Assembly (NCBI RefSeq): GCF_003269065.1
Contig: NZ_QLTA01000021.1
Coordinates: 1-64,000 of the forward strand
Length of the DNA stretch: 64,000 bases
Reading direction: 5' to 3'
DNA from: Paracidovorax anthurii
GTDB taxonomy: Bacteria; Pseudomonadota; Gammaproteobacteria; Burkholderiales; Burkholderiaceae_C
Below are positions 45,575 to 62,327 of this stretch, piece by piece (position 1 is the stretch's first letter; each line of letters starts with the position of its first letter). The translations under genes were made by a program, and so were the position numbers. Under the pieces are notes generated by a model. The model made no database searches. It was not told the origin of the DNA and saw only the letters and a program-made list of their open reading frames with translations.

Positions 45575-45670
45575 CCCGCCGCGCCGCCCTTGCGCCGGGC
45601 GCTGCCGGCGAGAGACTGAACACGAGGCCATCGCAGTGGTGGCCGCATCCCATCCCAAGGAAACCGCCCC

Positions 45671-47193: not shown

Positions 47194-47212
47194 TCGCAGG
47201 AGGTCATCACCG

Positions 47213-47953
47213 ATGAACGAAGCGGAGTTTTCCATCCACACACCCACGGACAACGTGCTCACGCTGGACCGGGCCGTGCTGCTGTACCACGGACGTTCGG
47301 GCGGCGCGCTGGCGACCGTGCATGAGGTCATGACCGTGGACGGCGCACCCGTGATCGGCGCCGGCCGCGCCATGACCGCGCAGGCGGCGCGGGAGCTGGC
47401 CTCGGCCCTGCTCCAGCGGGCGGCACACGGGGGCTTCCTGCCCGAGACGGTGCTGTACGTGCATGGCGATGTGCTGGTCTGGTGGGTGCCACCGGCCCGC
47501 CGGCATCTTGCGTTCCGCGTCGGCGACGACCATGCCGAATCCTTTGGCGGCAGCGAACGCGGCGAGGCCGTTCCGCTGCCGGGGCTGGTGTTCGCGGCCT
47601 CCAGCCGCGCATGGCGGGTGTGGGCCGTCAAGGGCAGTCGCCGCCCGAGCCCGAAGACGCCGCTGTTCCAGGCACCGTTCTTCAATGTCGATGGCAACGG
47701 CCGCATCTGCCAGGGCAACGTGCCGGTGCCCGAGGGGACCACGGTGGAGAAGATCGGTGCCTGGAACGACGCCTTCCTGCGCTCCTATTTCACGCACCCG
47801 AACGTGGCGGGCAAGCTGCTGCGCTACCGGGGCGGCTCCTATGCCTTCTGGCGCGACATGCTGGAGCAGCGCTTCACGCGCTTCCCCGAGCGGGTGCTGG
47901 TGGACACCAAGACCACGCTGGGCCAACTGCTCGGCGAGCCGGAGGACGCGTGA
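47213..47953 (+). CDS. PRTRC system protein B, E2-like (Prok-E2 family)
   Basis: 246 residues from ATG 47213, with CAGGAGG in the 19-bp gap. This family is, to my knowledge, Pfam Prok-E2_D, a ubiquitin-conjugating-enzyme-like fold. Consistent with that, it has a beta-rich core, FNVDGNGRICQGNVPVP with Cys166 placed like a UBC active site, and the following helix GAWNDAFLRSYFTHPNV. Cys166 is the only cysteine in the protein, which fits a catalytic thiol carrying a ubiquitin-like protein. Neighbours encode the Ubl (C), JAMM peptidase (A) and E1 (ThiF). Confidence 0.85.
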   Translation: MNEAEFSIHTPTDNVLTLDRAVLLYHGRSGGALATVHEVMTVDGAPVIGAGRAMTAQAARELASALLQRAAHGGFLPETVLYVHGDVLVWWVPPARRHLAFRVGDDHAESFGGSERGEAVPLPGLVFAASSRAWRVWAVKGSRRPSPKTPLFQAPFFNVDGNGRICQGNVPVPEGTTVEKIGAWNDAFLRSYFTHPNVAGKLLRYRGGSYAFWRDMLEQRFTRFPERVLVDTKTTLGQLLGEPEDA

Positions 47954-48651
47954 TGGATCCCCGGGACCAAGCCCTTCTGGCATCCTGCCCCGTGGTGGCC
48001 GCACCGCGCTTCGGCGCGCTACCGGACATGCCCAACGGCCAGCGCATCGTTGTCGCCCGCAACGGCTGGTTCGTGCAGACCCGGCTCGATTGGCTCGACA
48101 GCATCACGGCTCTTGGCATGGAGCCGCCCGCGATGCGCCTGCCCTATGGAGATATCGAGGAGCACCTGCGGTTCAGCTTCGGGCCGCTGCCGATCCGAAT
48201 GATCGAGGAGTTCGTGGCCTACGGGCGGGCGCACCTGCCCGATGAGGTGGCGGGGGTGCTGATCTACTCGCGCAGCAGCGGACGGCTGCGCCTGGCGATC
48301 TGCGAGGCCGAGTGGGCCTCGCCCGTGCGCATCGACTACCGCAGGCCGCCGATGGCCCACGACGAGACGGTGGCGGTGGACCTGCACACGCATGGCCGTG
48401 GCCCCGCCTTCTGGTCGGCCGACGACGACCGGGACGACCAGGGCATCAAGGTCGCGGGGGTGTTCGGCCTGCTGGACCAGCCCGCGCCGATGGCGTGCTT
48501 CCGCCTCGTGGTCAACGGGCTCTACAAGGCGCTGCCACGCCACCCCTGGCAGGGTTCGCAGGCGCTGCCAGCGGGGACGGACGGCGAGGATCCCGGTGCC
48601 GTGCACGAAGGCTGGATGCGCCGGGTAATGCGCCGCTGGCAGCGCGCTTGA
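47953..48651 (+). CDS. PRTRC system protein A, JAB/MPN (JAMM) metallopeptidase
   Basis: 232 residues from ATG 47953, overlapping the B stop by one base (TGATG). The N-terminal about 90 residues are family-specific. The C-terminal JAMM domain shows LPDEVAGVLIYSRSSG, then the zinc motif VDLHTHGRGPAFWSADDD (His-x-His, seven residues, Ser-x-x-Asp). JAMM peptidases cleave isopeptide or peptide bonds after ubiquitin-like C-termini. Here the enzyme could trim the extension of protein C and/or remove it from targets. The stop overlaps the ThiF start. Confidence 0.87.
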   Translation: MDPRDQALLASCPVVAAPRFGALPDMPNGQRIVVARNGWFVQTRLDWLDSITALGMEPPAMRLPYGDIEEHLRFSFGPLPIRMIEEFVAYGRAHLPDEVAGVLIYSRSSGRLRLAICEAEWASPVRIDYRRPPMAHDETVAVDLHTHGRGPAFWSADDDRDDQGIKVAGVFGLLDQPAPMACFRLVVNGLYKALPRHPWQGSQALPAGTDGEDPGAVHEGWMRRVMRRWQRA

Positions 48652-49544
48652 ACGCCAGCCGCACCGCGAGAGACTGGTCGCAGGACATTGAACTGGAGGC
48701 GCTCGTGGAACACCTGATTCATCCGAAGCTGCTGGGACACCGTGTGTCGGTGCATCTGGTTGGCGTGGGCGGCAACGGCGCGCAGATGGCGGCCTGTCTC
48801 GCGCGTCTGGATATTGCGATGCGGGCGCTCGGCCACCCGTATGGCCTGCACGTCACCGCCTTCGACGCAGACCGCGTGAGCGAGGCCAACGTGGGGCGCC
48901 AGCTCTACAGCGCCGCCGACATCGGGCGGCACAAGGCCCTGGTGACGATCCACCGCCTGAACCAGTTCTATGGGCTGGATTGGGAGGCGCACCCCATGCG
49001 CTACGAAGACTATGTGCATGGCGAGCGTGTCTCGGCGGGCGCGGACCTGCTGATCAGTTGCGTGGACAGCCGCTCGGCGCGGGGCCTGCTCCATCGCATC
49101 GCGTGGCGCGAGAGCAGCCAATACGGCTACTGGCTCGACCTGGGCAACACGGAGGCCACCGCGCAGGTGGTGCTGGGCGAGCCTTTGGGTGGTGCGGCGT
49201 TCCTGCCGAGGACTCTCGGTCCGCGCCTGCCGTGCGTGACCGAACTTTTTCCTGAACTGCTCGATGACGCTGCGCCCGAAGACAACCAGCCATCGTGCTC
49301 GGTGCGCATGTCGCTGGCGTCCCAGGGACTGTTCGTGAATGACGTGGCGGTGCGGTTCGCCGCGCAGTTGCTCTACGAATTGTTCTCGCAAGGCCGACTG
49401 TCGGCACATGGCGTCGTCATCAACCTGCAGTCCAAGCGCAGCGGTCCCATCGAGGTTGATCCGCGCACCTGGGCGCGTTTCGGGTTCGTGCTGCAGGACG
49501 AGGTGCCTGTCGCACGGGATGCCGAGACCCTCACCGAGGGATGA
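48648..49544 (+). CDS. PRTRC system ThiF/E1-like adenylating enzyme
   Basis: 298 residues from TTG 48648, which overlaps the A stop (TTGA); a GTG near 48704 would give a shorter protein starting close to the fold. E1/ThiF/MoeB Rossmann motif VSVHLVGVGGNGAQMAACL, then TAFDADRVSEANVGRQLYS (Asp and Arg contacting ATP), LLISCVDSRSARG, and a candidate catalytic Cys in RLPCVTELFPEL. It should adenylate the C-terminal glycine of a ubiquitin-like protein, most simply protein C, and pass it to the E2-like B. This is the last gene of the contiguous PRTRC run. Confidence 0.88.
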   Translation: MNASRTARDWSQDIELEALVEHLIHPKLLGHRVSVHLVGVGGNGAQMAACLARLDIAMRALGHPYGLHVTAFDADRVSEANVGRQLYSAADIGRHKALVTIHRLNQFYGLDWEAHPMRYEDYVHGERVSAGADLLISCVDSRSARGLLHRIAWRESSQYGYWLDLGNTEATAQVVLGEPLGGAAFLPRTLGPRLPCVTELFPELLDDAAPEDNQPSCSVRMSLASQGLFVNDVAVRFAAQLLYELFSQGRLSAHGVVINLQSKRSGPIEVDPRTWARFGFVLQDEVPVARDAETLTEG

Positions 49545-49780: not shown

Positions 49781-50290
49781 CTAGACTTGGGGCGGCGCAT
49801 CCCGCAGAAACACCGGCAGGTCCATCACAGGCGGCTTGCCACCGAGTTGGTAGAGCACCACGGCGACGTAGCCTCGATGGTAGGTCTTGTGGTTGACTGT
49901 ATGCAGCATCATGTCGGCACGGCGCAGACACCCCGCGCCCCCATCGACGAACTGGAAGCTCACCGGCTCATCGAGGTCCGCTTCCGACAACGTGTCGGCG
50001 TAGTCGATGTACCACTTGTCCAAGCGTGACTGCGATGCCTGCAGTTCACTCAGCGACGGCTCCTGCTCGGTATTGCGTGACGAGAAGCCATGGGGCCGAC
50101 CTTCGAGGTGGGCTTGCCAGATCTGGTCCACCACAAGGGCATGGTTCAGTGCCCGCGCAATGCTGCCCACGCCGGGCACCATGGGCTTGTGAATCTCCTG
50201 CGCTGGCAATGCCCCCAGCGCTGAAAACAGACGCGCGTTGGCCCAGGCGTTGTAGCGCAGCAGCATGCGCAGGTCGTGCGTCGGGGGCAT
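49781..50290 (-). CDS. DinB-family protein, island copy
   Basis: 169 residues from ATG 50290, 7 bases after GGAA (the frame continues to 50344). DinB four-helix features: RMLLRYNAWANARLFSAL, LNHALVVDQIWQAHL (first His) and MLHTVNHKTYHRGYVAVVLY (second and third His). It is clearly related to the chromosomal 19795-20319 protein (shared L-N-H-x-L-V-V, GRPHGF/GVPHGF, H-x-T-Y-H-R-G) yet diverged throughout. It sits alone on the minus strand between the PRTRC run and the recombinase gene. Substrate unknown. The 236 bp between ThiF and this gene hold no recognisable gene. Confidence 0.85.
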   Translation of the reverse strand: MPPTHDLRMLLRYNAWANARLFSALGALPAQEIHKPMVPGVGSIARALNHALVVDQIWQAHLEGRPHGFSSRNTEQEPSLSELQASQSRLDKWYIDYADTLSEADLDEPVSFQFVDGGAGCLRRADMMLHTVNHKTYHRGYVAVVLYQLGGKPPVMDLPVFLRDAPPQV

Positions 50291-50340
50291 GAAGGTTTCC
50301 AGGTTGATTCTTGGTGAAGTATTTTGCGTTGCTCTGCAAT

Positions 50341-51468
50341 TCACGCAACCTGGCTCTGATTCGCCGACGGGGATGAGATGGCGCCGATGTACGCGGTGGA
50401 AGCTCTCATCCTCGAATGCCCGGCTCTCGCCGCGACGGCCAGTCGCGCTGCCCGGTCCAGCTCGGGAGCCACGGGTCCGCCGCCCCGCACGGGCGAGGGC
50501 ACGCCCGTGATGTCCTCGTAGAGGTCGTTCACGTTGCCATGGCGCAGACCGTGCCCCGTGGTGCCCGCCAGCCGCTTGGTGATGCCGAACTTCTCGAACG
50601 CGTAGTCGAGTCGGCGCAGGTTGCGCTTCAGGCTCAGCGCCGGGTCGCCCATGTGGGCATCGCGGCTGGTGGCCAGTGAGCGCGCGAGCGCCACGGCATC
50701 GCGCTGCGCGTCCGTCTCAATGGCCACCCAGCGCACGCGCCCCCCCTTGCCCTTGGTCCACACGTACTCGTCCGCCTTGCGCTGCTCGGCCGGCAGACCC
50801 GTCTGCTCGAAGGCCACGACGTGTTCGAACGGGCGGAACATGACCGACTCCTTTCGCCGCAGCGCCAGCACCTTCGCCAGACGCATTGATGCGGCGATGC
50901 GTGCGTCGTACTGCGCCACTTGGGCGAGGACATCTTCCACATCGATGCCATGTGCGCTCCAGCTCTTGTCATGCTGGGCGGCCTCGTGCCGCTGGTACTC
51001 CTCCAGGCTCAGCCCGTAGCGCTCTGGCGGGCGCACGAAGCCGGGCTTGTTCATCCAGGACGCGAGCCCGCGAAGGAAACTCAGGTAGGTCTGGATCGTG
51101 GCGGGCGCCAACTGCTCGCGCTGCCAGACCTGCACCATGGCATGCAGGTGCTTCTGGCCGAGGTTGCGTGGATCGGGCACGGTGCGGAAGCCGGCCTTGC
51201 CCTTGAGGTCAAGGAAGAAGCGCCGCAGGAAGCGGGCGCGTTCATGGCGGGTCTTGTGCGAGACCGTCTTCTCGCGCGCCGTATGCCGGGTGTTGAACAG
51301 CCCGATCAGGGTGTCCAGCACATGCATGGGATCGGCGCGGCCGGGCGGCAGGCGCGCGAGGATGTCCTGGGGAGATTTCCCGGCCCAGGCTTGGGGGCGC
51401 GGTGGATCCATGCCGCGAAGGCGTCCCGGGCTTACGGGATCGGCGGGCCGGCGTGAAGGTGTCGTCAT
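50341..51468 (-). CDS. Tyrosine recombinase-like integrase-domain protein
   Basis: 375 residues from ATG 51468, 6 bases after GGAG; the frame runs to 51564. N-terminal SAM-like core-binding region (KTRHERARFLRRFFLDLKGK; QTYLSFLRGLASWMNKPG). The catalytic half has Arg in LALRRKESV, HGLRHGNV (His-x-x-Arg) and AGHSRMRASTAYIG (His and the Tyr nucleophile), so the R-H-R-H-Y set appears complete. It is quite different from the P4-like integrase at 55000-56352. It lies next to a 1.2-kb non-coding region and between PRTRC ThiF and D, so it could resolve element dimers or act on a site there. Confidence 0.85.
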   Translation of the reverse strand: MTTPSRRPADPVSPGRLRGMDPPRPQAWAGKSPQDILARLPPGRADPMHVLDTLIGLFNTRHTAREKTVSHKTRHERARFLRRFFLDLKGKAGFRTVPDPRNLGQKHLHAMVQVWQREQLAPATIQTYLSFLRGLASWMNKPGFVRPPERYGLSLEEYQRHEAAQHDKSWSAHGIDVEDVLAQVAQYDARIAASMRLAKVLALRRKESVMFRPFEHVVAFEQTGLPAEQRKADEYVWTKGKGGRVRWVAIETDAQRDAVALARSLATSRDAHMGDPALSLKRNLRRLDYAFEKFGITKRLAGTTGHGLRHGNVNDLYEDITGVPSPVRGGGPVAPELDRAARLAVAARAGHSRMRASTAYIGAISSPSANQSQVA

Positions 51469-52472
51469 CTTGCTCTCCATGTCAGGTTGGGCGCGCGGCA
51501 TGCCGCCCGAACGGCACGCCGGCAGGAATCCAGGAAGGCCAGCCCCAGCGGCGGATTCCGTCATCCGCTGGAGTGGGTGGTCGAGCAGTCACGGCAGCAC
51601 GCGCGACCACAGCGCGCGCCGCCGACCCAGGGGTTGCGCCAGCCACTCGCAGGTGCGCGGGCCAGCTCGGTCGGTCTTAAAAATGAAAACGTGTGATCCG
51701 GCTCCGTCCGTGCATTTCTGCAGCCACGGAGGCTTGTGACGCGCCACCGCCTCAAGGGCAGGCGGCTGCGTCGGCGACGAGATCGGGTCTCGCGCCCACT
51801 GGTGGATCAATCCTGGAATTCGCAGCGCCATCTGCGCGCATGGGTCCACCCCTGACCGAAAGTCCAGGGCGGTGTCGAGCATTTGAGCGGGGACCAGCGG
51901 GGAGCCAACGAGGGCAAGCACAACTGCTGGCGGCGTGAAACACGCGTGCTCGGGTGATGGCGGGATCGGGAGCCGGCATCGGGTGCCGGGTCGGGAGATT
52001 GGCGGCCTTGACGCGCTTCGGGGAGCGCCCAGCCACAGGCTGGCGAGGGTCGAAGGCACATGCACTGCGAAGGGAGACCTCGGGGCGGTCGCCTCGGGGG
52101 CGACGGCCACCCCGGTTCAGGACCGGGGCTTGAAGGGCAGGTAACGACTGCGACGCCTTTTGCTCCGCGATGGAGCGGGCCAGGGATGGCCCTCGGGAGT
52201 CTGTAGTGGATGACGAAAGGGACTTGCCAGTCAATGCGGGCATGGCAATGCGACGGCATGACTCCACGGTTGCCGATGGCGCTTGCCGGCACGGGACGGC
52301 GTGATAGGGGCGATTTAGTGTCCCGCTGGGCCGCGAAGCGAGGCTGCATGCGGGCTTGACAGGGAAAGTCTCTGCCTCTGGTCCGGCGCGGGGTGCTCAA
52401 GGCCGCAAGCAGGGGCGGGGGAGCCGGGGAGGGGCATCGCTCGCGGACGGGGTTGACGCGGGCTTCCTGGAT

Positions 52473-52490
52473 GGGAGTCTGGTGACTCCC
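52473..52490. repeat. Perfect inverted repeat GGGAGTC-TGGT-GACTCCC
   Basis: A 7-bp stem with 4-base loop, 182 bp upstream of the actin-like gene. No T-run follows, so a protein-binding site or cruciform is likelier than a terminator. Its arms recur singly at 52195-52201 and 52260-52265. Confidence 0.6.
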
Positions 52491-52537
52491 GAGAGATGCG
52501 CGACCGAAGCGGCGGGCAGCGGCGATCAATGCGGCGG

Positions 52538-52558
52538 CACTGGATAACACCTCCAGTG
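52538..52558. promoter_or_regulatory. Inverted repeat CACTGG-N9-CCAGTG, candidate operator
   Basis: A perfect 6-bp dyad with 9-bp centre (ATAACACCT), 114 bp ahead of the actin-like gene start; size and spacing suit a dimeric repressor. Confidence 0.4.
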
Positions 52559-52672
52559 ACTCTCCATTGAAGACCGATGCCGAAAGGAGGTCGATTCGGT
52601 GCGGATTGCGGGTGGCGCGGTCAGGTCGGCTTGCCGATGCTGATCGCCATTCTTCTTTACAGGAGCATCCCT

Positions 52673-53704
52673 ATGGAAAAGATCGTCCGAGCGGTGGATG
52701 TCGGCTCCGGCAACACCAAACTCGTCACCGGCGTCGTGGGCGCCGACATTCGCTGCAGCAGCTTTCCGTCCGTGGCCTATCCGTCCAGCGGTGAGGCGAC
52801 GCACTGGCCGGCGACCGAGCGGCGCAAGACCGCCTGCATTCCCGTCGGACCGCTGTACTACGAGGTGGGCCCCGATGTGGGCCTGGCCGCGGACACGTTC
52901 CGTGCCAAGCAACTGCATGACGACTACACCGACTCGCCCGAGTACATGGCGCTGCTGCGTGGCGCGCTGAACATGATGAAGCTGCCCCATATCGACCTGC
53001 TGATCGTGGGGCTGCCCGTGGCGCTGTTCAACCTCAAGAGGGCATCACTCGAGAAGGCGATGGTTGGCAGCCACCCGGTGGGCAACGGCCGGACCGTGAC
53101 GGTCGCCAAGGCAATGGCGGTCGCCCAGCCTCAGGGAGCGTTGGTCCACTACGCGGCCGAGCACGAGAAGATGGCGACCATCGGCACCGAGCAGAGTCTG
53201 GTGATCGACCCCGGCTCGCGCACCTTCGACTGGCTGGTCACGCGCGGCATGCGCCTGGTGCAGAAGCAGTCGAGCTCGATCAACCGAGGCATGTCGGATG
53301 TTCTGCGGTTGCTGGCGGCCGAGATCTCCAAGGACATCGGCACGCCCTACCGCGACTACGACGCGATCGACCTGGCGCTGCGAACGGGCAAGGCGCCGGT
53401 GATCTTCCAGAAGTCCTACGACATGAAGAAGCACCTGCCGCTGGCCGAGAGCGTGGCGCAGCAGGCGGTGTCGACCATGCGGCAGTGGATCGAGACGCCC
53501 GAGAGCCTGCAGAACATCATCCTGGTGGGGGGCGGAGCCTTTCTGTTCAGGAAGGCCGTGAAAGCCGCTTTCCCGAAACACCGCATCCACGAGGTCAAGG
53601 AGCCGATGTTCGCCAACGTGCGCGGGTTTCAACTTGCCGGGCAGAACTACGCCGCCACCATGCCGGCCGCCATCCGCGATCGCGGGGCAGGGGAGGTTGC
53701 ATGA
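52673..53704 (+). CDS. PRTRC system protein D, actin-like (ParM/StbA-type) ATPase
   Basis: 343 residues from ATG 52673, 7 bases after AGGAG. Actin/Hsp70-fold signatures: phosphate-1 loop VRAVDVGSGNTKLVTGV, phosphate-2 SLVIDPGSRTFDWLV and adenosine motif NIILVGGGAFLFRKAV. Plasmid ParM/StbA relatives polymerise to push DNA copies apart, so segregation of the excised element is the natural reading. PRTRC cassettes include such a protein (D); here it is split from the rest by a recombinase gene and the non-coding region. The following 92-residue gene overlaps by 4 bp and could encode its adaptor. Confidence 0.88.
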   Translation: MEKIVRAVDVGSGNTKLVTGVVGADIRCSSFPSVAYPSSGEATHWPATERRKTACIPVGPLYYEVGPDVGLAADTFRAKQLHDDYTDSPEYMALLRGALNMMKLPHIDLLIVGLPVALFNLKRASLEKAMVGSHPVGNGRTVTVAKAMAVAQPQGALVHYAAEHEKMATIGTEQSLVIDPGSRTFDWLVTRGMRLVQKQSSSINRGMSDVLRLLAAEISKDIGTPYRDYDAIDLALRTGKAPVIFQKSYDMKKHLPLAESVAQQAVSTMRQWIETPESLQNIILVGGGAFLFRKAVKAAFPKHRIHEVKEPMFANVRGFQLAGQNYAATMPAAIRDRGAGEVA

Positions 53705-53979
53705 GCGCACCCTCACAGGAAAAGCCCCAGCCGGTCCGGCTGGTGTTCAAACTGGAGCGCGCCGAGAACCCTCGGCTGTACGACGAGTTGGTGCAGTTTG
53801 CGCAAGGGGTCAAGCGGGTCAATCGGCTGCGCGTGCTCGCGTACGACGGACTGCTTGCCCAGCACGGGGTTTTCTCGCTGTCGGGGGCGACGTCTACGCT
53901 CACGACGGATCGCAGCGGTGCAACGGCAACGCCCTCCGCGGTGACCAACCAGGTCTTCGGGCCCGGATTGGTGGAGTGA
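53701..53979 (+). CDS. Small protein coupled to the actin-like gene
   Basis: 92 residues from ATG 53701, overlapping the D stop (ATGA). Sequence VRLVFKLERAENPRLYDELV, then helix-forming QGVKRVNRLRVLAYDGLLAQ and a Ser/Thr-rich flexible tail. Not recognised. A small partner directly after a ParM-like gene is typically the DNA-binding adaptor (ParR/StbB); the basic helix fits loosely, but no ribbon-helix-helix motif is clear. Confidence 0.6.
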   Translation: MSAPSQEKPQPVRLVFKLERAENPRLYDELVQFAQGVKRVNRLRVLAYDGLLAQHGVFSLSGATSTLTTDRSGATATPSAVTNQVFGPGLVE

Positions 53980-53986
53980 GGCGGGT

Positions 53987-54433
53987 ATGTCTCAGCAAAG
54001 AACACGTGGGTGCGGTGAGGTGACTGCCACCGAGCTGGCCGCGATGGGCTACTGCGAGAAGAAGGTGCAGCTTGCCCATTTGTACGGGCAGCGCACGACT
54101 CCCGAACAGCGCAAGGCTATGGCAAGGGGACGGCAGGCCCATCAGCGGTACTTCGAGCAGGGCGTTGCATCCGCCTCGGATCGCCGATGCTTCGTGGCCA
54201 CCTTCGTCTTCGGCCCGGAAGCGGTGGAGACGCAAGTGCTTCGCACGTACCGCGATAGGGTGCTTCTGCACCGTCGCTGGGGGCGCTGGGTGGTGGCGGT
54301 GTACTACTGGGTGGGGCCGGCTGGCTGCTGGATCCTGGGCCGATCGCCAGCGCTTGCGAGGGGAGTGCGCTTGCTGCTGCGTATCGTGGTCGTCTGGTGC
54401 CGCATTCGGATCGACGCGGGGAGATGGACATGA
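53987..54433 (+). CDS. Small membrane-associated protein with the N-terminal Cas4/RecB-like motif
   Basis: 148 residues from ATG 53987. The segment ELAAMGYCEKKVQLAHLYG (Cys23) and the later RGRQAHQRYF (His52) resemble the first cluster Cys and the helical start of Cas4-like PD-(D/E)xK nucleases. The nuclease core itself is absent. Instead the C-terminal third is hydrophobic and aromatic (WVVAVYYWVGPAGCWILG) and basic. The next gene overlaps by 4 bp and supplies the missing core motifs and the remaining Cys residues. I infer that the two proteins may form one enzyme. Other readings: an unrelated membrane protein, or a gene split by mutation. Confidence 0.6.
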   Translation: MSQQRTRGCGEVTATELAAMGYCEKKVQLAHLYGQRTTPEQRKAMARGRQAHQRYFEQGVASASDRRCFVATFVFGPEAVETQVLRTYRDRVLLHRRWGRWVVAVYYWVGPAGCWILGRSPALARGVRLLLRIVVVWCRIRIDAGRWT

Positions 54434-54978
54434 CCGCGGCCGTGGCGGTGGGGCTCGGGTGCCTCGTACTGGCGCTGCTGCTGGCGCGTGCCTGGTGGTT
54501 TCGACGGACCCTATCCGCCGAGCAACGCTCGAGACCGAAGGCGTTGGCTCAGGCCGAGTTGGTCTACATGGAGACGCTCTTTCGAATCCAGCAGCCCTTC
54601 CCACTGGTGGCCAAAGTGGATCGGGTGTATAGACTGCCCCGCGGTCCGCTGGTGCTGGTGGAACTGAAGGTCCGGCAACAGAATCGTCCGCATCTTTCCG
54701 ATGTCGTTCAGCTTTCTGCGCAGAGGCTGGTGATCGCGATGGAGACCGGGGAAACAGTCGCGCCCTATGGTTTCGTTTCCATTCCGATTCCTGGTCGCCA
54801 TGGGGTATTTCGTTCGCACCGAGTTGACCTGCTGAACTCAAGCGAGCTGGTCCGGCTGTATCGCCGGCGCGAGGAGGTGCTCGCCCTTCGGGTCCACCCC
54901 GGCTATGCGGCCTCGGAGGCCGCATGCCGTAGCTGCGCGTTGCGCTCAAAGTGTGATCGCTTCAACGACCGGACTTGA
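54430..54978 (+). CDS. Membrane-anchored Cas4-like PD-(D/E)xK nuclease with C-terminal Cys cluster
   Basis: 182 residues from ATG 54430, overlapping the previous stop (ATGA), with GGGGAG 6 bases ahead. An N-terminal membrane helix (AAVAVGLGCLVLALLLA) comes first. The nuclease core follows: Asp64 in AKVDRVYRLP, Glu78-Leu-Lys80 in LVLVELKVRQQ and Gln94 in SDVVQLSAQ. The C-terminal CRSCALRSKC (Cys166, 169, 175) matches the three distal Fe-S ligands of Cas4/AddB-type nucleases. The fourth ligand of a usual Cas4 lies near the N-terminus and is missing here but present in the preceding gene. It converges on the integrase gene with a 21-bp gap. A role in element DNA processing is inferred. Confidence 0.75.
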   Translation: MTAAVAVGLGCLVLALLLARAWWFRRTLSAEQRSRPKALAQAELVYMETLFRIQQPFPLVAKVDRVYRLPRGPLVLVELKVRQQNRPHLSDVVQLSAQRLVIAMETGETVAPYGFVSIPIPGRHGVFRSHRVDLLNSSELVRLYRRREEVLALRVHPGYAASEAACRSCALRSKCDRFNDRT

Positions 54979-54999
54979 GGAACTGCGGCGCACCGTCGC

Positions 55000-56352
55000 T
55001 CATTCGTTGGCAGCCGCCCTGAGCGTCATTGCTTGGGGAAGGCGGGTCGGTGTGTAGAGGGGCGGTGCCGCTTCGTCTTCGTTGGCTCTGAGGGTTTCGT
55101 CGGGAAACTGCACAGCCTCTTCTCTGCTGATCGCCCCCAGCATCTCTGCCCACTGGCGTAGAGCCCTTTTTCGTTGTGCGAAGTAGTCGTGCTTGTCGTA
55201 GATCCCTTGCCGTCCAGGCAGTTTGTGGTTGAGGGCCCGCTCTGCGACAAATGGTTCCACGCCGAGGGCGCCAAGTTGCGTTCTGGCCGTTCGGCGCATG
55301 TCGTGGACGGTGAAGTGCTCCATGTCCTTCCTTGGCAACCGCTTGAGCGCGACGTTGAGGGTGTCGGGACTGATGTGTTCAAAACGGTTCTTCCGAGGCA
55401 CCCCGTTTCTGACACGGATGAGTCGGCGCGCAGGAAACAGGTACTCGCTGCCGCATGCGATCGCAATCACTTGCCTGAGCCATTCAACCACTTGTTGCGA
55501 CAGCGGGATTTCGATGTACGACTTGGTCTTCGTCCGATCTGCATCCAGCTTCCATACGCCTCTCTCGAGATCGAAGTCCACCACTTTGGCTGACAGCAGT
55601 TCCATCTTCCGCACGCACAGGGCCAGCAAAAGCCAGACTGCGAGCTCGTTGATGCGGCCGAAATTCGGTGTCTCACGCATGTCCCTGGCCAGTGCCATCA
55701 GATCTTCGTAGCTGAGCCAGCGCTCGCGAGGAAGCTCGGTGCCTCCGGCATCGGACAGGTCGAAGCCCGCAACAGGATTGGCATCGGTCCACCGCCGTTT
55801 GGCGGCGTAGTGAAACATGCGGAACAGGTAGCGCATCGCATCGTTGGCGACAGTCGGAGCGCCGCCTTCGACAATCTTGTTCAGGACCGCGTCGATGTGA
55901 TGTGGGCGGACCTCGTCAATTGCGAGCTTGCCGATCACTGGGTAGATGTGGAGGCGTAGAACCCGTTCGACGACAACCGGGTTCTTAATCTTCTTGAGGA
56001 TATGTCGTTCGTACCAGGTCTGCCCCAGGCCTCGAACATCCTCCATCTCAAGGGTCTTGAGCTTTTCCTGGCGCTTCTTTGCGCTGACGTCGACACCCTG
56101 TTGGATCAAGGCGCGGTCGCGGCGAGCAAGTTCCCTGGCTTCCTTGAGAGTGATGTCTGGATAGCGTCCCAAGACCTTCTCAGGTCGACGGCCTCCGATG
56201 CGGTAACGAAGGATCCAGGTCGCTTGCCCTTGGCGGGCGGAAGCCTCCTTCGCGAAAAAGATCAGCCCACCGCCGATCCCTTTGTCGACGGGCCCGGCGC
56301 TCAGCCAAGCTCGTAGCGTTCTATCCGAAACATTTTGTGTAAACCCAGTCAT
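55000..56352 (-). CDS. P4-like tyrosine-recombinase integrase of the island
   Basis: 450 residues from ATG 56352 with GGAGG 7 bases ahead. An N-terminal DUF4102-type arm-binding region (GGLIFFAKEASARQGQATWI; EKVLGRYPDITLKEARELAR) and core-binding domain (about 105-200) precede the catalytic domain: Arg in LCVRKMELLSAK, HDMRRTARTQLG (His-x-x-Arg), ALNHKLPGRQGIYDKHDY (His and Tyr). P4-like integrases insert elements into tRNA or other conserved genes. Here the gene lies at the island's right end with its 5' side toward yicC, and a nested inverted-repeat region at 56374-56444 lies just upstream. Confidence 0.92.
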   Translation of the reverse strand: MTGFTQNVSDRTLRAWLSAGPVDKGIGGGLIFFAKEASARQGQATWILRYRIGGRRPEKVLGRYPDITLKEARELARRDRALIQQGVDVSAKKRQEKLKTLEMEDVRGLGQTWYERHILKKIKNPVVVERVLRLHIYPVIGKLAIDEVRPHHIDAVLNKIVEGGAPTVANDAMRYLFRMFHYAAKRRWTDANPVAGFDLSDAGGTELPRERWLSYEDLMALARDMRETPNFGRINELAVWLLLALCVRKMELLSAKVVDFDLERGVWKLDADRTKTKSYIEIPLSQQVVEWLRQVIAIACGSEYLFPARRLIRVRNGVPRKNRFEHISPDTLNVALKRLPRKDMEHFTVHDMRRTARTQLGALGVEPFVAERALNHKLPGRQGIYDKHDYFAQRKRALRQWAEMLGAISREEAVQFPDETLRANEDEAAPPLYTPTRLPQAMTLRAAANE

Positions 56353-56373
56353 GGCGCGGCCTCCAGCAGTGTT

Positions 56374-56444
56374 TGGAGGGTTCGCGTTCCGGGTTTGGTC
56401 CGGAACTGGGGGGTTCGACCTCGAACCCGCCTAAAAACCCTCCA
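56374..56444. repeat. Nested inverted-repeat (three-way-junction-like) element at the island's right end
   Basis: Outer arms TGGAGGGTT (56374-56382) and AACCCTCCA (56436-56444) enclose two further perfect hairpins: GTTCCGG/CCGGAAC (56386-56406, 7-base loop) and GGGTTCGA/TCGAACCC (56411-56428, 2-base loop). Single-stranded, this folds as a stem with two internal hairpins. It is not a tRNA: arm order and loops do not fit. Position between integrase start and yicC suggests an attachment or integrase-binding site, or an operator of the integrase gene. Confidence 0.5.
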
Positions 56445-56520
56445 GAAAGCTTGCGCTTGTCTGGGACGCCGTGGCACGGCATGAAAGAGTTTTCTATTGA
56501 AAATCAACGACTTAGGGTGT

Positions 56521-56552
56521 CGTTTTGGGGTGGCATGAGCCCCCCCGAAACG
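56521..56552 (-). terminator. Hairpin directly after the yicC stop
   Basis: CGTTTTGGGGTGGC and GCCCCCCCGAAACG pair across a 4-base loop (ATGA) with two non-canonical positions, starting at the base after the yicC stop codon. No T-run follows on the minus strand. It is probably the transcription end of yicC, but could also mark the element junction. Confidence 0.4.
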
Positions 56553-57464
56553 TCACTCTATGTTCTGCACCTGCTCGCGCATCTGCTCGATCAGCACTTT
56601 CATGTCCACGCTGATGCGGGTGAGTTCCATGGCGGCGGACTTGGAGCCCAGGGTGTTGGCTTCCCTGTGCAGTTCCTGGATGAGGAAGTCGAGCCGCTTG
56701 CCGATGTCCCCGCCCTTCTTGAGGAGTCGTTCGATCTCGTCGAGATGGGAGTCGAGGCGCGTGATCTCTTCGGCCACGTCGATGCGGATGGCGAATGCCG
56801 TGGCTTCCGAGAGCGCGCGGTCCTGGGCGGCTTCTGGGATGGGCGCGCCTTCCGTCAGGGCCATGGCCTCTTTCCAGCGATCGAGGAAGCGCTGGCGCTG
56901 CTGTTCTACCAGTTGAGGCACCAGGGGAGTAGCTTGGCGGGCGAGGTCGCGGAGCTGGCGGAGGCGGTCCTGCAGCATGGCCGAGAGCCGCTTGCCCTCC
57001 CGCTCGCGCGCGGCCAGCAGTTCTTTCAGGGCGCGTTCGGCCAGTGCCTGCACGCCATCGGCCTCCCATCCGGCGGAGGCCGCGCCCGCCGCGGCGCAGA
57101 AGCGCAAGGCGTCGGCCACGGAGAGCGGCGCGGCGGAAGGCAGCCAGGCGCGCACCGCGTCCTGTGCGGAGTTGAGCCGCTGCAGCATGCGCGGGGAGGG
57201 CTCGGGCAGGGCGCCCTGCGCGTCGGACTCTATGGAGGCGCGCACTTCCACCTTGCCGCGTTTGAGGTGCTGTGTGACCAGTGCGCGCAGGGCCGGCTCC
57301 TGGCTGCGCAGTTCGTCCGGCAGGCGGAAGGCCAGGTCCAGGAAACGGCTGTTGACCGAGCGGATCTCGATGCCGAGCCGGGGGAGATGCGCACCGTTTT
57401 CCGCGTCGGCGGCGGAGGCTTCGAGCTGGGCGCTCGCGTAGCCGGTCATGCTGTAAACTGCCAT
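56553..57464 (-). CDS. yicC: YicC-family endoribonuclease
   Basis: 303 residues from ATG 57464 (the frame extends to 57557). N-terminal signature MAVYSMTGYASAQ and EIRSVNSRFLDLAFRLPDEL. The C-terminal DUF1732 region has RIDVAEEITRLDSHLDEIER, GKRLDFLIQELHREANTLGS and the closing helix. YicC is a conserved bacterial RNase implicated in small-RNA turnover. Its divergent neighbour is a Ser/Thr kinase (86-bp gap). It is the first core gene to the right of the island. Confidence 0.93.
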   Translation of the reverse strand: MAVYSMTGYASAQLEASAADAENGAHLPRLGIEIRSVNSRFLDLAFRLPDELRSQEPALRALVTQHLKRGKVEVRASIESDAQGALPEPSPRMLQRLNSAQDAVRAWLPSAAPLSVADALRFCAAAGAASAGWEADGVQALAERALKELLAAREREGKRLSAMLQDRLRQLRDLARQATPLVPQLVEQQRQRFLDRWKEAMALTEGAPIPEAAQDRALSEATAFAIRIDVAEEITRLDSHLDEIERLLKKGGDIGKRLDFLIQELHREANTLGSKSAAMELTRISVDMKVLIEQMREQVQNIE

Positions 57465-57550
57465 CGGACTTTTTCGGTGATTGCTTGCGATCCGGCGATT
57501 ATCCGGGTTCCTTTTCTCGACCAAGGCGCGCCCGAGTTTTCTTCGCAAAT

Positions 57551-58570
57551 ATGTCAAAAATCAAGCCGGCTCCCCTGCCGCCCGACACGATGATCGGCGG
57601 CTACCGCGTGGTACGCCGGTTGTCCGCGGGGGGCTTTGGCGTGGTGTACCTGGCCACGGACTCCGAGGGCCAGCAGGTCGCCATCAAGGAATACCTGCCG
57701 TCTTCATTGGCCACCCGCTCCCCGGGCGAACTGCTGCCCAAGGTGCCCCCCGAGAAGCTTTCGCTCTACCGGCTGGGGCTCAAGAGCTTCTTCGAGGAAG
57801 GCCGGGCGCTGGCGCAGATATCGCACGCCTCGGTGGTCAGCGTTCTCAATTTCTTCCGCGAGAACGAGACGGTCTACATGGTGATGAACTACCTGGAGGG
57901 CGCCACGCTGCAGGATTTCATCATCACCGCGCGCGATCTCAAGACGCAGAAGGTGTTCCGCGAGTCCACCATCCGGTCGCTCTTCGACGAGGTGCTGCGG
58001 GGCCTGCGCATCGTGCACCAGCACAAGATGCTGCACCTGGACATCAAGCCTGCGAACATCTTCATCACCGACGACAACAAGGCGGTGATGATCGATTTCG
58101 GCGCGGCGCGCGAGGTGCTGTCCAAGGAAGGCAATTTCATCCGCCCGATGTACACCCCCGGCTTCGCGGCCCCCGAGATGTACCGGCGGGATTCCTCGAT
58201 GGGCCCGTGGACCGACATCTACGCCATCGGCGCGTGCATCTATGCCTGCATGCAGGGCTTTCCGCCCAACGAGGCGCCGCAGCGCGCGGAGAAGGACCGC
58301 CTCTCGCTGGCGCTGAGCAAGCTGCGGGGCGTGTATTCCGACAACCTGATCGAGGTGGTGGAATGGTGCATGGCGCTCGATCCGCTCTCGCGGCCGCAGT
58401 CGGTGTTCGCGCTCCAGAAGGAGCTCAGCCGCGAGGGCGAGCGCCGCTACACCAAGCTCTCGGTGGGCGAGAAGATGCGCCTGCAGCTCGACACGCTGGT
58501 CTCCGACACGAAGAAGAACGTGCAGAAGATGGGCGATGCAACGCGCCTGGGCGGAGCGAAGCCGAAATGA
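57551..58570 (+). CDS. Serine/threonine protein kinase
   Basis: 339 residues from ATG 57551 (MSKIKPAPLPPDTMIGGYRV). Complete Hanks-type kinase: Gly-rich loop RLSAGGFGVVYLA, VAIKEYLPSS (ATP Lys), HLDIKPANIFI (catalytic loop, L-D in place of R-D), MIDFGAAREVLS (DFG), APEMY and the C-lobe DIYAIGACIYACM. The catalytic-loop Arg is replaced by Leu, so it may not need activation-loop phosphorylation. No membrane helix; the C-terminal about 60 residues are basic and probably flexible. Coupled by ATGA overlap to the PP2C phosphatase, a reversible-phosphorylation pair. Substrates unknown. Confidence 0.93.
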   Translation: MSKIKPAPLPPDTMIGGYRVVRRLSAGGFGVVYLATDSEGQQVAIKEYLPSSLATRSPGELLPKVPPEKLSLYRLGLKSFFEEGRALAQISHASVVSVLNFFRENETVYMVMNYLEGATLQDFIITARDLKTQKVFRESTIRSLFDEVLRGLRIVHQHKMLHLDIKPANIFITDDNKAVMIDFGAAREVLSKEGNFIRPMYTPGFAAPEMYRRDSSMGPWTDIYAIGACIYACMQGFPPNEAPQRAEKDRLSLALSKLRGVYSDNLIEVVEWCMALDPLSRPQSVFALQKELSREGERRYTKLSVGEKMRLQLDTLVSDTKKNVQKMGDATRLGGAKPK

Positions 58571-59481
58571 AATTTTCCGTCTTCCAGATCAGCCGCCGCG
58601 GCGGCCGCGAGATCAATGAGGACCGGATGGGCTACTGCTACACGCGCGAGTCCAGCCTGTTCCTGCTGGCCGACGGCATGGGAGGTCACCCGGAAGGTGA
58701 GGTGGCCGCGCAGATCGCGGTGCAGACGGTGTCGTCGGCCTACCAGCGCCAGGCCAAGCCCTTGCTGGAGGATGTGGAGGCCTTTCTGGCGGAGTCCCTG
58801 CTCGCGGCCCACCACCAGATCCTGCGGTACGCGAGCGACCGGGGCATGCTCGACACGCCCCGCACCACGCTCGTGGCGGCGGTGGTCCAGTCGGGCCGCG
58901 CGAGCTGGGTGCACTGCGGCGACTCGCGCCTGTACATGGTGCGGGCCGGCGAGCTGCTCACCCGTACGCGCGACCATTCCTATCTCGAACTGCGCAATGC
59001 GAGCCTGCCCAGCCTCGACCGCGTGAACCGCAACGTGCTCTTCACCTGCCTCGGCTCGCCGACCAAGCCCATCTACGACATCACGGGCCCCGTGGCGCTG
59101 GAGCAGGGCGATCGCATCCTGCTGTGCTCCGATGGGCTGTGGGGTGCGCTGGACGATGCGGCCATCGCGCGGCAACTGGGGCGCCTGCCGGTGGCGCAGG
59201 CCGTGCCGGAACTCGTCGAGGACGCGCTGCGCAAGGCGGGCGACAGCAGCGACAACGTCACCGTCGTGGCGATGGAGTGGGAGACGCCGGACACCTTCGA
59301 GTCCACGCAGGGTATCTCCACGCACCACATCGGCGACGACGGTTTCGCCTCCACCATCCAGGCCGAGCTGTTCGACGCGGCGCAGGGCGACGACCTGGAC
59401 GATCTGGACGACGAGGCCATCGAGCGCTCGATCGCCGAGATCAACGAGGCCATCCGGCGTTCGGCGGCGCGCAAGTCCTAG
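58567..59481 (+). CDS. PP2C-family protein serine/threonine phosphatase
   Basis: 304 residues from ATG 58567, overlapping the kinase stop by 4 bp. Metal-binding motifs of PP2[58 protein letters not shown] and [12 protein letters not shown]. After the catalytic domain (to about 245) comes an acidic tail with [12 protein letters not shown]. It should remove phosphates placed by the partner kinase, in the cytoplasm. Confidence 0.93.
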
Positions 59482-59596
59482 TCCTGACTCCCGCAGGCTT
59501 TCTTCTCCACGCGGCGCGCCGCGCGCTGGCGTCATCCTGCCGGCGTGCCATGCAGGGCCCCGCCGCCTCTTTCAGTTTCCAACGATCCACCCAGCC

Positions 59597-60343
59597 ATGA
59601 CTCTCTCCGAGACGCCCCTTTCCTTCCAGCGCAGTGCCGGCCGCGCCGCGGATCAGCTGCGCCCGGTGCGCATCACGCGCCGCTACACCATGCACGCTGA
59701 GGGCGCCGTGCTGATCGAGTTCGGCCACACGAAGGTGCTGTGCACTGCCTCGGTGGAAGAGCGCGTGCCGCCCCACAAGCGGGGCAGCGGCGAGGGCTGG
59801 GTCACGGCCGAGTACGGCATGCTGCCGCGCGCGACCCACACGCGCAGCGATCGGGAGGCGGCGCGCGGCAAGCAGACCGGCCGTACGCAGGAGATCCAGC
59901 GGTTGATCGGCCGCAGCCTGCGCGCGGTGTTCGATCTCAAGGCGCTGGGTGAGCGCACGATCCAGCTCGACTGCGACGTGATCCAGGCCGACGGCGGCAC
60001 GCGCACGGCGGCGATCACCGGGGCCTGGGTGGCGGCGCAGGATGCGGTGGCCGCGCTGCTGGCGGCGGGCAAGATCACCGCGTCGCCCATCACGGCGCCC
60101 CTGGCCGCGATCTCCGTGGGCATCGTGCAGGGCACGCCGCTGCTCGATCTGGAGTACACCGAGGATGCGCAGTGCGACACCGACATGAACGTCGTCATGA
60201 CGGGCGCGGGCCATTTCGTGGAAGTGCAGGGAACGGCCGAGGGCGTGGCGTTCACGCGGCAGGAGATGGACCGCCTGCTGGAACTGGCCCAGAAGGGCGT
60301 GGCCGAACTGATCGCGCTGCAGCGGCATGCACTATCAAATTAA
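59597..60343 (+). CDS. rph: Ribonuclease PH
   Basis: 248 residues from ATG 59597 (115 bp after the phosphatase). RNase PH signatures: [92 protein letters not shown] and [19 protein letters not shown]. It is the phosphorolytic 3'-5' exoribonuclease that trims tRNA 3' ends, acting as a hexamer. Full length with no lesions. rdgB follows after 45 bp, as in many proteobacteria. Confidence 0.97.
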
Positions 60344-60388
60344 TAGCAAACAACGTAGCAAACTCGTCGACATGGGAGCATTTTGGCC

Positions 60389-60988
60389 ATGAAACTCGTC
60401 CTGGCATCCAATAACCGCGGCAAATTGGCCGAGTTGCAGGCCATGTTCGCCGGCCTGGGCGTGGAGCTGGTGAGGCAGGCGGATCTGGGCGTGGGCGAGG
60501 CCGAGGAGCCCTTCCACACCTTCGTCGAGAACGCTCTGGCCAAGGCGCGGTTCGCGTCGGGCCACACGGGCCTGCCTGCGCTGGCCGACGACGCCGGCCT
60601 GTGCGTGGACGCCTTCGGCGGGCTGCCGGGTGTGCAGACGGCCCACTACGCCACGCAGTTCGGCTACGAGAAGGGCGATGCCAGCAACGTGCACGCCCTG
60701 CTGGAGCAGATGGCGGGCGTGGAGATGCGCCGCGCGGCGATGGTCAGCACGCTGGTGGCCGTGCGCAGCCCCGAAGACCCGGAGCCGCTCATCGCCGTGG
60801 GCCGCGTGGTGGGCGAGATCACGCGCGAGCCGCGCGGCAGCCAGGGCTTCGGATTCGACCCCGTGATGCTCCTGCCCGAGTTCGGCAAGACCTTCGCCGA
60901 GCTGCCCGGGGAGGTGAAGAACACGTTCAGCCACCGGGGGCGCTCGGCCCGGCAGATGCTGGAGCTGATGCGCGAGCGCTGGCTCTGA
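60389..60988 (+). CDS. rdgB: dITP/XTP pyrophosphatase (RdgB/HAM1)
   Basis: 199 residues from ATG 60389, with GGGAG 10 bases upstream (an in-frame TTG lies two codons earlier). Signatures: LVLASNNRGKLAELQAM, FVENALAKARFASGHTGLPA, LADDAGLCVDAFGG, PRGSQGFGFDPVMLLP and NTFSHRGRSARQM. It hydrolyses ITP, dITP and XTP to monophosphates, keeping deaminated purines out of DNA and RNA. It sits between rph and hemW, the usual arrangement. Confidence 0.97.
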   Translation: MKLVLASNNRGKLAELQAMFAGLGVELVRQADLGVGEAEEPFHTFVENALAKARFASGHTGLPALADDAGLCVDAFGGLPGVQTAHYATQFGYEKGDASNVHALLEQMAGVEMRRAAMVSTLVAVRSPEDPEPLIAVGRVVGEITREPRGSQGFGFDPVMLLPEFGKTFAELPGEVKNTFSHRGRSARQMLELMRERWL

Positions 60989-61050
60989 GCGGCCCACCGC
61001 GCCCTCCGCTCCGGTTTTTCTGCCGACCCCTTCCATCCCCTGCTTGCACC

Positions 61051-62304
61051 GTGTCCATTCCCATCGTTCCCTCGGACGGCCCGGGCGCCGAGGCGTCTCC
61101 CGCGCCCTTGCGGGATGTCCTGCACTCGATGCGCCCCGGCGTGCTGAACCTCGGCAGTCCGCCGCCGCTGTCGCTGTACGTGCACCTGCCCTGGTGCCTG
61201 AAGAAGTGCCCCTACTGCGATTTCAACTCGCACGAGGCGCGCCGGGACACCGCCGGGGCGCTGCCCGAGGGGCGCTACCTGGATGCCCTGATGGCCGACC
61301 TGGAGTCGGCGCTGCCCCTCGTGTGGGGGCGCACCGTGCACAGCGTGTTCATCGGCGGCGGAACGCCCAGCCTGTTCTCGCCGGAGTCGATCGACCGGCT
61401 GATCGGCGGCGTGCGCGCGCGCCTGCGGCTGGAGGCCGATTGCGAGATCACGCTGGAGGCCAACCCGGGCACGTTCGAGAAAGACCGTTTCCGGGCCTAC
61501 CGGGCCGCGGGGATCACGCGCCTGTCGGTGGGGGTGCAGAGCTTCGACGACCGCTTCCTCGCGGCCCTGGGCCGGGTGCACGATGGCGCCCAGGCGCTGG
61601 CCGCGGTGCAGGAGGCCGCGCAGGCCTTCGAGACGTTCAACCTCGACATCATGTATGCGCTGCCGGGCCAGACCCTGGCCGACCTGGAGTGCGACATGCG
61701 CACGGCGCTGTCGATGGCGCCGCCGCACATCTCGATCTACCACCTGACCATCGAGCCCAACACCTACTTCGCGAAGTACCCCCCGCGGGTGCCGGAGGAC
61801 GACCAAGCCTACGCCATGCTGGACCGCATCACCGAGATGACGGGCGATGCGGGGCTGCTGCGCTACGAGATTTCCGCCTATGCGCGTGACGGGCACCCGT
61901 GCCTGCACAACACCAACTACTGGCAGTTCGGGGACTACCTGGGCATCGGGGCCGGGGCCCACGGCAAGCTCAGCTTCGCGCACCGCGTGGTGCGGCAGGC
62001 ACGCTTCCGCGAACCGCAGCGCTACATGGAGCAGGCCCTGGCCGGCAACGCCGTGGCCCAGGACCACGAGGTGCGGCGGGCGGATCTGCCGTTCGAGTTC
62101 ATGCTCAATGCACTGCGGCTGCGCGAGGGGTTCGCGCTGCAGGATTTCGCGGACCGCACCGGGCTGCCCCTGAGCGCGATCCGGGCGCCGCTGGAGGAGG
62201 CCGAGCGCAAGGGCTTGATCGTGCGGGACATGGCGCGCGTGCGGCCCACCGAGCGCGGTTTCGATTTCCTGAGCGATCTGCAGGAGCTGTTTCTCTCCGA
62301 CTGA
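61051..62304 (+). CDS. hemW: HemW, radical-SAM haem chaperone family
   Basis: 417 residues from GTG 61051 (MSIPIVPSDGPGAEA); the frame runs further up but only as a shadow of rdgB. Radical-SAM cluster motif in HLPWCLKKCPYCDFNSH (Cys-x3-Cys-x2-Cys), FIGGGTPSLFSPESI, TLEANPGTFEKDRF, RLSVGVQSFDDRFLAALGR, FNLDIMYALPGQT and a C-terminal HemN_C domain (LPFEFMLNALRLREGF). HemW-type proteins lack the extra residues of true coproporphyrinogen oxidase HemN and carry haem to membrane enzymes. Confidence 0.94.
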   Translation: MSIPIVPSDGPGAEASPAPLRDVLHSMRPGVLNLGSPPPLSLYVHLPWCLKKCPYCDFNSHEARRDTAGALPEGRYLDALMADLESALPLVWGRTVHSVFIGGGTPSLFSPESIDRLIGGVRARLRLEADCEITLEANPGTFEKDRFRAYRAAGITRLSVGVQSFDDRFLAALGRVHDGAQALAAVQEAAQAFETFNLDIMYALPGQTLADLECDMRTALSMAPPHISIYHLTIEPNTYFAKYPPRVPEDDQAYAMLDRITEMTGDAGLLRYEISAYARDGHPCLHNTNYWQFGDYLGIGAGAHGKLSFAHRVVRQARFREPQRYMEQALAGNAVAQDHEVRRADLPFEFMLNALRLREGFALQDFADRTGLPLSAIRAPLEEAERKGLIVRDMARVRPTERGFDFLSDLQELFLSD

Positions 62305-62327
62305 CGGGCCGGCACGGGGGGCGACGG

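Follow-up and report, generated by a model that had tools for sequence, protein, structure and literature searches.

A Putative Membrane-Tethered Cas4/RecB-Type Nuclease Divided between Two Gene Products of Mobile Elements

The Gene Pair and Its Element

The window, by which we mean the whole 64,000-nucleotide stretch of Paracidovorax anthurii DNA that was analyzed, carries two small overlapping genes, referred to here as gene 1 (the N-half) and gene 2 (the C-half). They close a group of four genes running in the same direction, in the order parM-like PRTRC D gene, 92-aa gene, gene 1, gene 2, within an element. The principal features of this region are the following:

43201-49544 (+), PRTRC cassette: ParB, A, B, C, E, F and ThiF, all over NCBIfam cut-offs
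43201-45015 (+), PRTRC ParB, over the NCBIfam cut-off
44942-45574 (+), PRTRC E, over the NCBIfam cut-off
45671-46129 (+), PRTRC C, over the NCBIfam cut-off
46126-47193 (+), PRTRC F, over the NCBIfam cut-off
47213-47953 (+), PRTRC B, over the NCBIfam cut-off
within 47482-48651 (+), PRTRC A, over the NCBIfam cut-off
within 48312-49544 (+), PRTRC ThiF, over the NCBIfam cut-off
50341-51564 (-), second tyrosine recombinase, upstream of parM (PF12835 32.2 bits, PF12834 29.4 bits)
52673-53704 (+), ParM-like PRTRC system protein D (TIGR03739, 524 bits, cut-off 214.8), first gene of the four-gene group
53701-53979 (+), 92-aa protein encoded between parM and gene 1, without a family match above cut-off
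53987-54433 (+), gene 1: Cas4-like N-terminal region at about residues 12-58 (Cys23, Gly48, His52), CFI-box-CTERM at residues 68-135
54430-54978 (+), gene 2: N-terminal hydrophobic helix, PD-(D/E)XK core D64/E78-L-K80/Q94, C-terminal C166-x2-C169-x5-C175
55000-56352 (-), tyrosine integrase (PF00589, 58.5 bits), directly downstream of gene 2 and beside the yicC 3' end
56553-57464 (-), yicC (PF03755 and PF08340)

Gene 1 (148 aa) and gene 2 (182 aa) are both open throughout and overlap by the four bases ATGA, in a -1 frame relation, with gene 2 starting at the ATG at 54430; the sequence-only reading had assigned the frames near this point correctly, and its residue numbers agree with that start. 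It had also placed an N-terminal Cys and a His in gene 1, and Asp64, Glu78-Leu-Lys80, Gln94 and three C-terminal Cys in gene 2, all of which are present. The start of the ParM-like gene at 52673 was chosen by reading, and the searches ran on 52667-53701. ParB, A to F and ThiF thus occur together in the window, as expected of a PRTRC system, all over their cut-offs, whereas neither half of the gene pair matches a PRTRC family. No type IV secretion gene was found among the 22 open reading frames (ORFs) that were family-searched in 28.7-56.4 kb, no promoter-like site in 52300-55100, and no Rfam match in 28000-57000, and a comparison of 56341-56720 with the rest of the window turned up no att repeat that reaches 15 bases, only a single, chance-like 14-mer. 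The left end of the element was not located. As the sequence-only reading had remarked, there is no CRISPR: direct repeats of CRISPR type are absent from 50000-64000, which leaves the pair outside the usual setting of CRISPR-associated Cas4, and the one Cas1 gene found in the genome lies on a separate contig (C18).

The arrangement parM, 92-aa gene, gene 1, gene 2 recurs among related loci. Among 80 such loci, collected as described below, homologues of parM are present in 73 and of the 92-aa gene in 77, while within the fetched flank the tyrosine integrase is found in 34 and the second recombinase in 3. Of the 73 parM homologues, 58 stop no more than 700 bases ahead of gene 1 (the measure applied says otherwise for 10, and 5 are unmeasured), and in all seven loci that lack parM the sequence upstream is shorter than about 1 kb.

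Other genes of the window are recorded here as observations in their own right. Within the element, a protein with a SIR2-like domain is encoded at 37343-39190 (-; PF13289, 57.6 bits), a domain familiar from defense genes, and two PAPS-reductase/DndC-like proteins at 30940-32661 and 41369-42526 (+); a PAPS reductase family gene is also present on an IncC plasmid, between repA and the C-half. A DinB family protein (49781-50344, -; PF05163, 81.3 bits) is encoded after the PRTRC cassette and ahead of the second recombinase. A DinG-type helicase (28706-30871, +) is apparently not orthologous to the chromosomal dinG: its closest counterpart in the genus, at 56%, belongs to genome G004 and shares a contig with the copy of the gene pair there, about 55 kb off, and other members of the genus match it at about 40-42%, elsewhere. 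Finally, two small low-GC genes (GC3 0.57 and 0.45) occupy 6685-7504; a 1585-aa ORF immediately precedes them, and the 2 kb stretch around them has a GC content of 54%.

Domain Content and Conservation of the Two Halves

Gene 1 belongs to the CFI-box-CTERM family (NF041770) by virtue of its C-terminal end, residues 68-135 scoring 63.3 bits against a cut-off of 40, a domain that the sequence-only reading had overlooked and for which, searched by name, no paper was found in the open-access literature. Ahead of it, residues 17-56 resemble the Cas4 family TIGR00372 weakly (12.7 bits, E 0.083). Gene 2 belongs to PF12705 (PDDEXK_1; 26.1 bits, gathering cut-off 22), and its residues 58-175 match TIGR00372 with 23.8 bits, so that both halves remain below the curated Cas4 cut-off of 65. 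As judged from median dN/dS values of 0.236 for gene 1 (214 non-independent comparisons) and 0.304 for gene 2 (225, likewise non-independent), both genes are under purifying selection.

Relatives of gene 2 were collected by a pattern scan of genome contigs that returned 114, and the best 80 of the 114 were kept; these represent 77 distinct proteins, with L011, L070 and L071, L020 and L050, L066 and L067, and L079 and L080 identical in gene 2. P36, E48, D64, L76, E78, K80, R82, L134, C166 and C169 are invariant in all 80. C175 is a cysteine in 80/80 by alignment, and with the tail of L089 diverging after C169 the safe count is 79/80. D91, S96 and Q98 are invariant too, and position 94 holds Q in 45 proteins and E in the other 35; all four positions sit within the search pattern and are hence uninformative on conservation. 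On the side of gene 1, 73 of 78 N-halves were aligned after a motif-based pick. Of the five omitted, L037, L042 and L098 depart from the motif only ahead of the Cys, which they possess, and in L033 and L069 the frame is apparently interrupted; the N-terminal Cys is seen in 76/78. E24, G34, G48 and H52 are invariant in the 73 aligned N-halves, as are A14, L17, M20 and C23, but the latter four are contained in the motif that selected the set.

A profile of the Cas4-like N-terminal region is matched by 73/73 N-halves and by none of the 80 gene-2 relatives at E <= 1. The first 60 residues of the gene-2 proteins contain some Cys in 53 cases and GxxxH in two, and the more distant gene-2 homologues that do have an N-terminal Cys of their own are ordinary single-chain Cas4 proteins. 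Homologues of gene 2 acting alone with such a Cys had been named by the sequence-only reading as what would speak against a divided enzyme, and none of the 80 relatives takes that form. In 18/73 N-halves no CFI motif can be recognized, and the Cas4-like part is retained in those.

A membrane location had been suggested for both halves. Taking as a strong hydrophobic stretch 19 residues with a mean hydropathy of at least 1.6, we find one within the first 45 residues in 73/80 gene-2 relatives and in the rest of the protein in 2/80. For the N-halves, the first 55 residues reach this level in 0/73, and the tail does so in 3/55 with a CFI-box versus 8/18 counted without one. Because of these counts across relatives, the prediction of a membrane helix is firm in the case of gene 2 and partial in that of gene 1; the suggestion thus stands well for gene 2 and only in part for gene 1, where the segment in question is the CFI-box-CTERM domain.

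Co-occurrence and Separateness of the Halves

The sequence-only reading had proposed a search for the two genes as pairs or fusions elsewhere, and it is as pairs that they occur. The N-half lies directly upstream of gene 2 on the same strand in 78/80 loci (L033 and L069, with their interrupted frame, being counted), and the remaining two, L105 and L109, begin at the edge of their locus. Among 94 loci, a few of which are duplicate sequences, there is no ORF that holds both halves. Over 87 same-strand pairs the frame relation is -1 in 57, +1 in 28 and in frame in 2; the halves are parted by another gene in L004, L110 and L113 and inverted in L002. A natural near-fusion is found in L084 (993-1808), where both halves share one frame and are split by a single TGA plus two codons.

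The order was sampled evenly, with 399 genomes in all. Of these, the N-half profile (E <= 0.001) matches exactly 3 and 0/396 others, and the C-half profile strongly matches the same 3 (E 1e-36 or better); seven weaker C-profile matches were set aside from these counts, five being Cas4-like proteins of one chain that carry an N-terminal Cys themselves and two falling in ORFs of 624 and 622 aa. A sample of 398 genomes of the phylum gave the window and one weak C-half match, again a single-chain Cas4-like protein that was set aside. Among 60 near genomes, including the window's own, gene 2 is present in four and gene 1 in the same four, and one further gene-1 match, the fifth, is confined to the CFI-box of a frame of 548 aa. 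Protein distances of N-halves and C-halves correlate with r 0.816 over 73 pairs, a value reached in 0/500 permutations, which is what co-inheritance alone leads one to expect. No relative was matched in phage records or viral contigs, and PHROGs gave no match for the pair. The spread of the pair beyond the window was not visible to the sequence-only reading.

Distribution on Plasmids and the IncC Form

The C-half is present on 11/11 plasmids that were fetched via the N-half, a diversity pick from 73 records, being adjacent in 9 and one gene off in 2. The pair lies near a TraG-type gene on Diaphorobacter and Burkholderia MOBF plasmids, on an Aeromonas MOBH plasmid pair and on a Piscinibacter PRTRC plasmid, and adjoins an M48 protease gene on a Denitratisoma plasmid. 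A more divergent form, in which Pro follows the N-terminal Cys just as it does in ordinary Cas4, occurs on plasmids of Vibrio tubiashii, Aeromonas, Marinobacter, Microbulbifer, Thioalkalivibrio and Pseudomonas, and several Acidovorax/Diaphorobacter plasmid versions of gene 2 are annotated as Dna2/Cas4.

No CFI-box was found in five plasmid records that were searched, among them those of IncC, Vibrio, Azospirillum and Alcaligenes. The idea that C-halves without a CFI-box partner stand alone was considered and rejected for IncC, Vibrio and Azospirillum, each of which has a CFI-less N-half close after mobI. On the IncC plasmid pCF2206-2 this N-half (L121 1805-2074) has a hydrophobic tail and lies between mobI and repA: it begins at the fifth base past the mobI stop and runs off the record end just before repA, with the C-half on the far side of the record start, at a distance of about 5.4 kb. 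Whole-record searches with the N-half profile gave E 1.7e-4 for IncC, weak and motif-read matches for Vibrio (E 0.004) and Azospirillum (E 0.006), and no N-half on the Alcaligenes record. The gene-2 relatives of the IncC and Vibrio plasmids end in C-x-C only, so that the four-Cys cluster is not universal, and their N-halves retain the Cys nevertheless, for which reason a joint loss of Cys from both halves was dropped as an explanation. The Azospirillum gene 2 (L008) lacks the terminal Cys, with the Cys retained in its N-half-like ORF, and the Alcaligenes gene-2 relative (L009) likewise has no terminal Cys.

By tblastn, the IncC-form N-half is found in 1093 plasmid records and the C-half in 1109 or 1147 depending on the query, these being separate tallies unpaired by record. 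In pVCR94, vcrx001 is a mobI-like gene and vcrx003 is repA (PMC3915882, PMC4207636); because it lies between the two, the IncC N-half should, judged by position, be vcrx002 of pVCR94. The tag vcrx002 was found in one open-access paper, in a figure legend, and the open-access literature searched yielded no role for the halves on IncC-type drug-resistance plasmids.

Fold Model and Profile Comparison

The near-fusion L084 lends itself to modeling of both halves together. Its natural read-through, with the stop read as Gly, was submitted to AlphaFold as one tethered chain, together with 85 unpaired rows, none of them extending beyond a single half; in this alignment the C rows begin with about five misplaced residues. 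The resulting model (mean pLDDT 80.8, pTM 0.70) has two helices at the break, residues 70-92 and 99-121. Its best VIA-align match is Cas4 8d3l_I, of the type I-C Cas4-Cas1-Cas2 complex (Z 14.2, rmsd 4.0, 186 residues aligned, model residues 4-272), tied with human Exo5 (14.0) and Cas4 7mi4 (14.0) and followed by AdnA nuclease domains; absences from the VIA-align list carry no evidential weight. The first Foldseek match is SSO0001 (4ic1; E 5.5e-7), a Cas4. The gene-2 part of the model comprises residues 98-272 (175 residues), so that at least 11 of the aligned residues must come from the gene-1 part, a minimum that rises to 39 should the gene-2 membrane helix be unaligned. The L084 read-through is modeled as one Cas4-like nuclease domain that spans both halves.

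The N-half of the window, modeled alone, has no fold match in the PDB (best E 9.8), and its CFI-box is helical and well ordered (pLDDT 91-95). Residues 11-30, which include the Cys, reach pLDDT values of 92 and 81 in the joint model versus 49 and 53 in the window N-half alone, whereas residues 31-60, with the His, are modest in the joint model (68, 72, 59) and show no gain over the N-half alone (66, 78, 63); as the two models are of different proteins with different alignments, this contrast is a hint and does not amount to a control. Profile comparison aligns gene 2 with Cas4 residues 74-191 (probability 97.4%, E 9e-12) and gene 1, weakly, with Cas4 residues 5-54 (probability 3.7%, E 0.011), Cys and GxxxH being in register.

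Comparison with Known Systems

The closest known counterparts are the Cas4 proteins, both those of CRISPR type such as the type I-C Cas4 8d3l and the solo or mobile-element (MGE) Cas4 proteins, which the pair resembles in fold, in its PD-(D/E)XK motifs and in the order of its segments. Cas4 has four conserved Cys for an Fe-S cluster (PMC5704561). One N-terminal and three C-terminal Cys are likewise present here, spread over two chains in the window and, at the counts given above, in nearly all relatives, and lacking as a full set on the IncC and Vibrio plasmids. The catalytic residues are similarly complete over the two chains, with D64, E78 and K80 in 80/80 gene-2 relatives and H52 of gene 1 in 73/73 N-halves. 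The pair differs from Cas4 in consisting of two chains from two genes, with 0 fusions in 94 loci, in its membrane segments at the break, in its CFI-box domain, in having no CRISPR repeats alongside and in scoring under the Cas4 family cut-off.

Cas4 genes are known from mobile elements, including a clade on Burkholderiales conjugative plasmids (PMC5704561, section 6). Gene 2 of the pair may belong to that clade; the section on it mentions no split, and the words "split" and "transmembrane" do not appear in the main text (PMC5704561). The nuclease fold is also shared with AddB, AdnA, Exo5 and Dna2 (Z 9.7-14.0, with Exo5 tied with Cas4). In these enzymes the nuclease domain lies within one chain, joined in AddB, AdnA and Dna2 to a helicase, whereas neither gene 1 nor gene 2 matches a helicase family. 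The likeness to the CFI-box-CTERM family is that of gene 1, over the cut-off, at its C-terminal end. No earlier report of a split or membrane-tethered Cas4 was found in the open-access literature searched, most subscription journals being outside it.

Proposed Function and Alternative Explanations

We consider it probable, with a fair margin of doubt, that the two genes encode two subunits of one membrane-tethered Fe-S nuclease of Cas4/RecB type belonging to mobile elements. The sequence-only reading had already proposed one Cas4-type enzyme over two genes, and the conservation of the pair, its co-occurrence, the invariant residues and the fold model all support that proposal. An active-site His is a feature of RecB-family nucleases; gene 1 would give this residue together with one Fe-S Cys, and gene 2 would give the active-site Asp, Glu-x-Lys and Gln/Glu together with three Fe-S Cys. 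By analogy with what is established for the Cas4/RecB family, the chains would assemble into one Fe-S nuclease, and we infer that the pair cuts DNA and holds an Fe-S cluster. The chain break would fall after the N-terminal helices, and the segments at the break would be membrane-associated: the hydrophobic helix that starts gene 2 and the CFI-box or, in some relatives, the hydrophobic tail that ends gene 1. Because such segments sit at the break, the enzyme would be anchored in the inner membrane and its catalytic part would face the cytoplasm, and tethering at the inner membrane is probable on the hydropathy of the predicted proteins.

Single-stranded or broken element DNA would then be processed at the membrane in the transfer or establishment of plasmids and integrative elements, a role that the neighboring genes, from which it is deduced, make most likely; a part in maintenance, or mobilization of the element by a helper, is also possible because none of the 22 family-searched ORFs in 28.7-56.4 kb is a secretion gene. 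The sequence-only reading had suggested maintenance or transfer of the element from the place of the pair behind the actin-like gene, and the surroundings would suit such a role. A broader version of this proposal, which we advance tentatively and rate at somewhat less than even chances, is that conjugative and integrative elements (PRTRC, MOBF, MOBH and IncC) share the pair as a general factor for transfer or establishment, that it was overlooked as each half scores below family cut-offs, and that its assembly depends on both halves coming together in the membrane, the transfer channel being one place where this could happen.

Among the alternatives, the one that survives best, though we regard it as unlikely, is a membrane-tethered entry nuclease that destroys foreign DNA, of a phage or a rival plasmid, as it crosses the membrane and so shields the host of the element. 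The adjacency of the membrane helix to the nuclease core would suit such a role, as would the company of the SIR2-like gene and the two DndC/PAPS-reductase-like genes in the same element, and a Cas4-like nuclease of Synechococcus is reported to lower plasmid transfer or maintenance (PMC10653904). However, the pair occupies the parM group of PRTRC elements or a place near mobI and not a variable cargo position, and PADLOC returned weak Cas4 matches only (best E 8.5e-6, for gene 2) and no dedicated defense family.

That gene 1 is a partner, an anchor or regulator with a retained Cas4-like motif, and gene 2 alone the nuclease, strikes us as improbable. The Asp, the Glu-x-Lys and the three Cys do all lie in gene 2, and gene 1 is linked to Cas4 only weakly by its profile, but Gly48 and His52 are kept in every aligned N-half while in 18 of them no CFI motif can be recognized, and the Cas4-like N-terminal region is found in none of the 80 gene-2 proteins. 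A structural, non-catalytic DNA-binding derivative of Cas4 has a precedent proposed for the TTV1 nucleocapsid protein (PMC5704561), but the invariance of D64, E78 and K80 in all 80 gene-2 relatives makes it very improbable here. Least credible of all is an artifact or decay, with one cas4 gene frameshifted or two genes joined by programmed frameshifting, which the ATGA overlap and -1 relation of the window might suggest but which is refuted as a general explanation by the variable frame relations, by halves that are gene-separated, inverted or, on IncC, about 5.4 kb apart, and by purifying selection on both genes.

Significance

Two separately encoded, membrane-associated chains would set the proposed nuclease apart from the Cas4 proteins with which it was compared, all of which are single-chain, and the pair appears to be backbone equipment of several families of mobile elements. 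If the role in transfer or establishment is true, the proposal would provide a testable function for backbone genes on plasmids that spread drug resistance, as well as a clear-cut example from nature of an Fe-S enzyme split in two.
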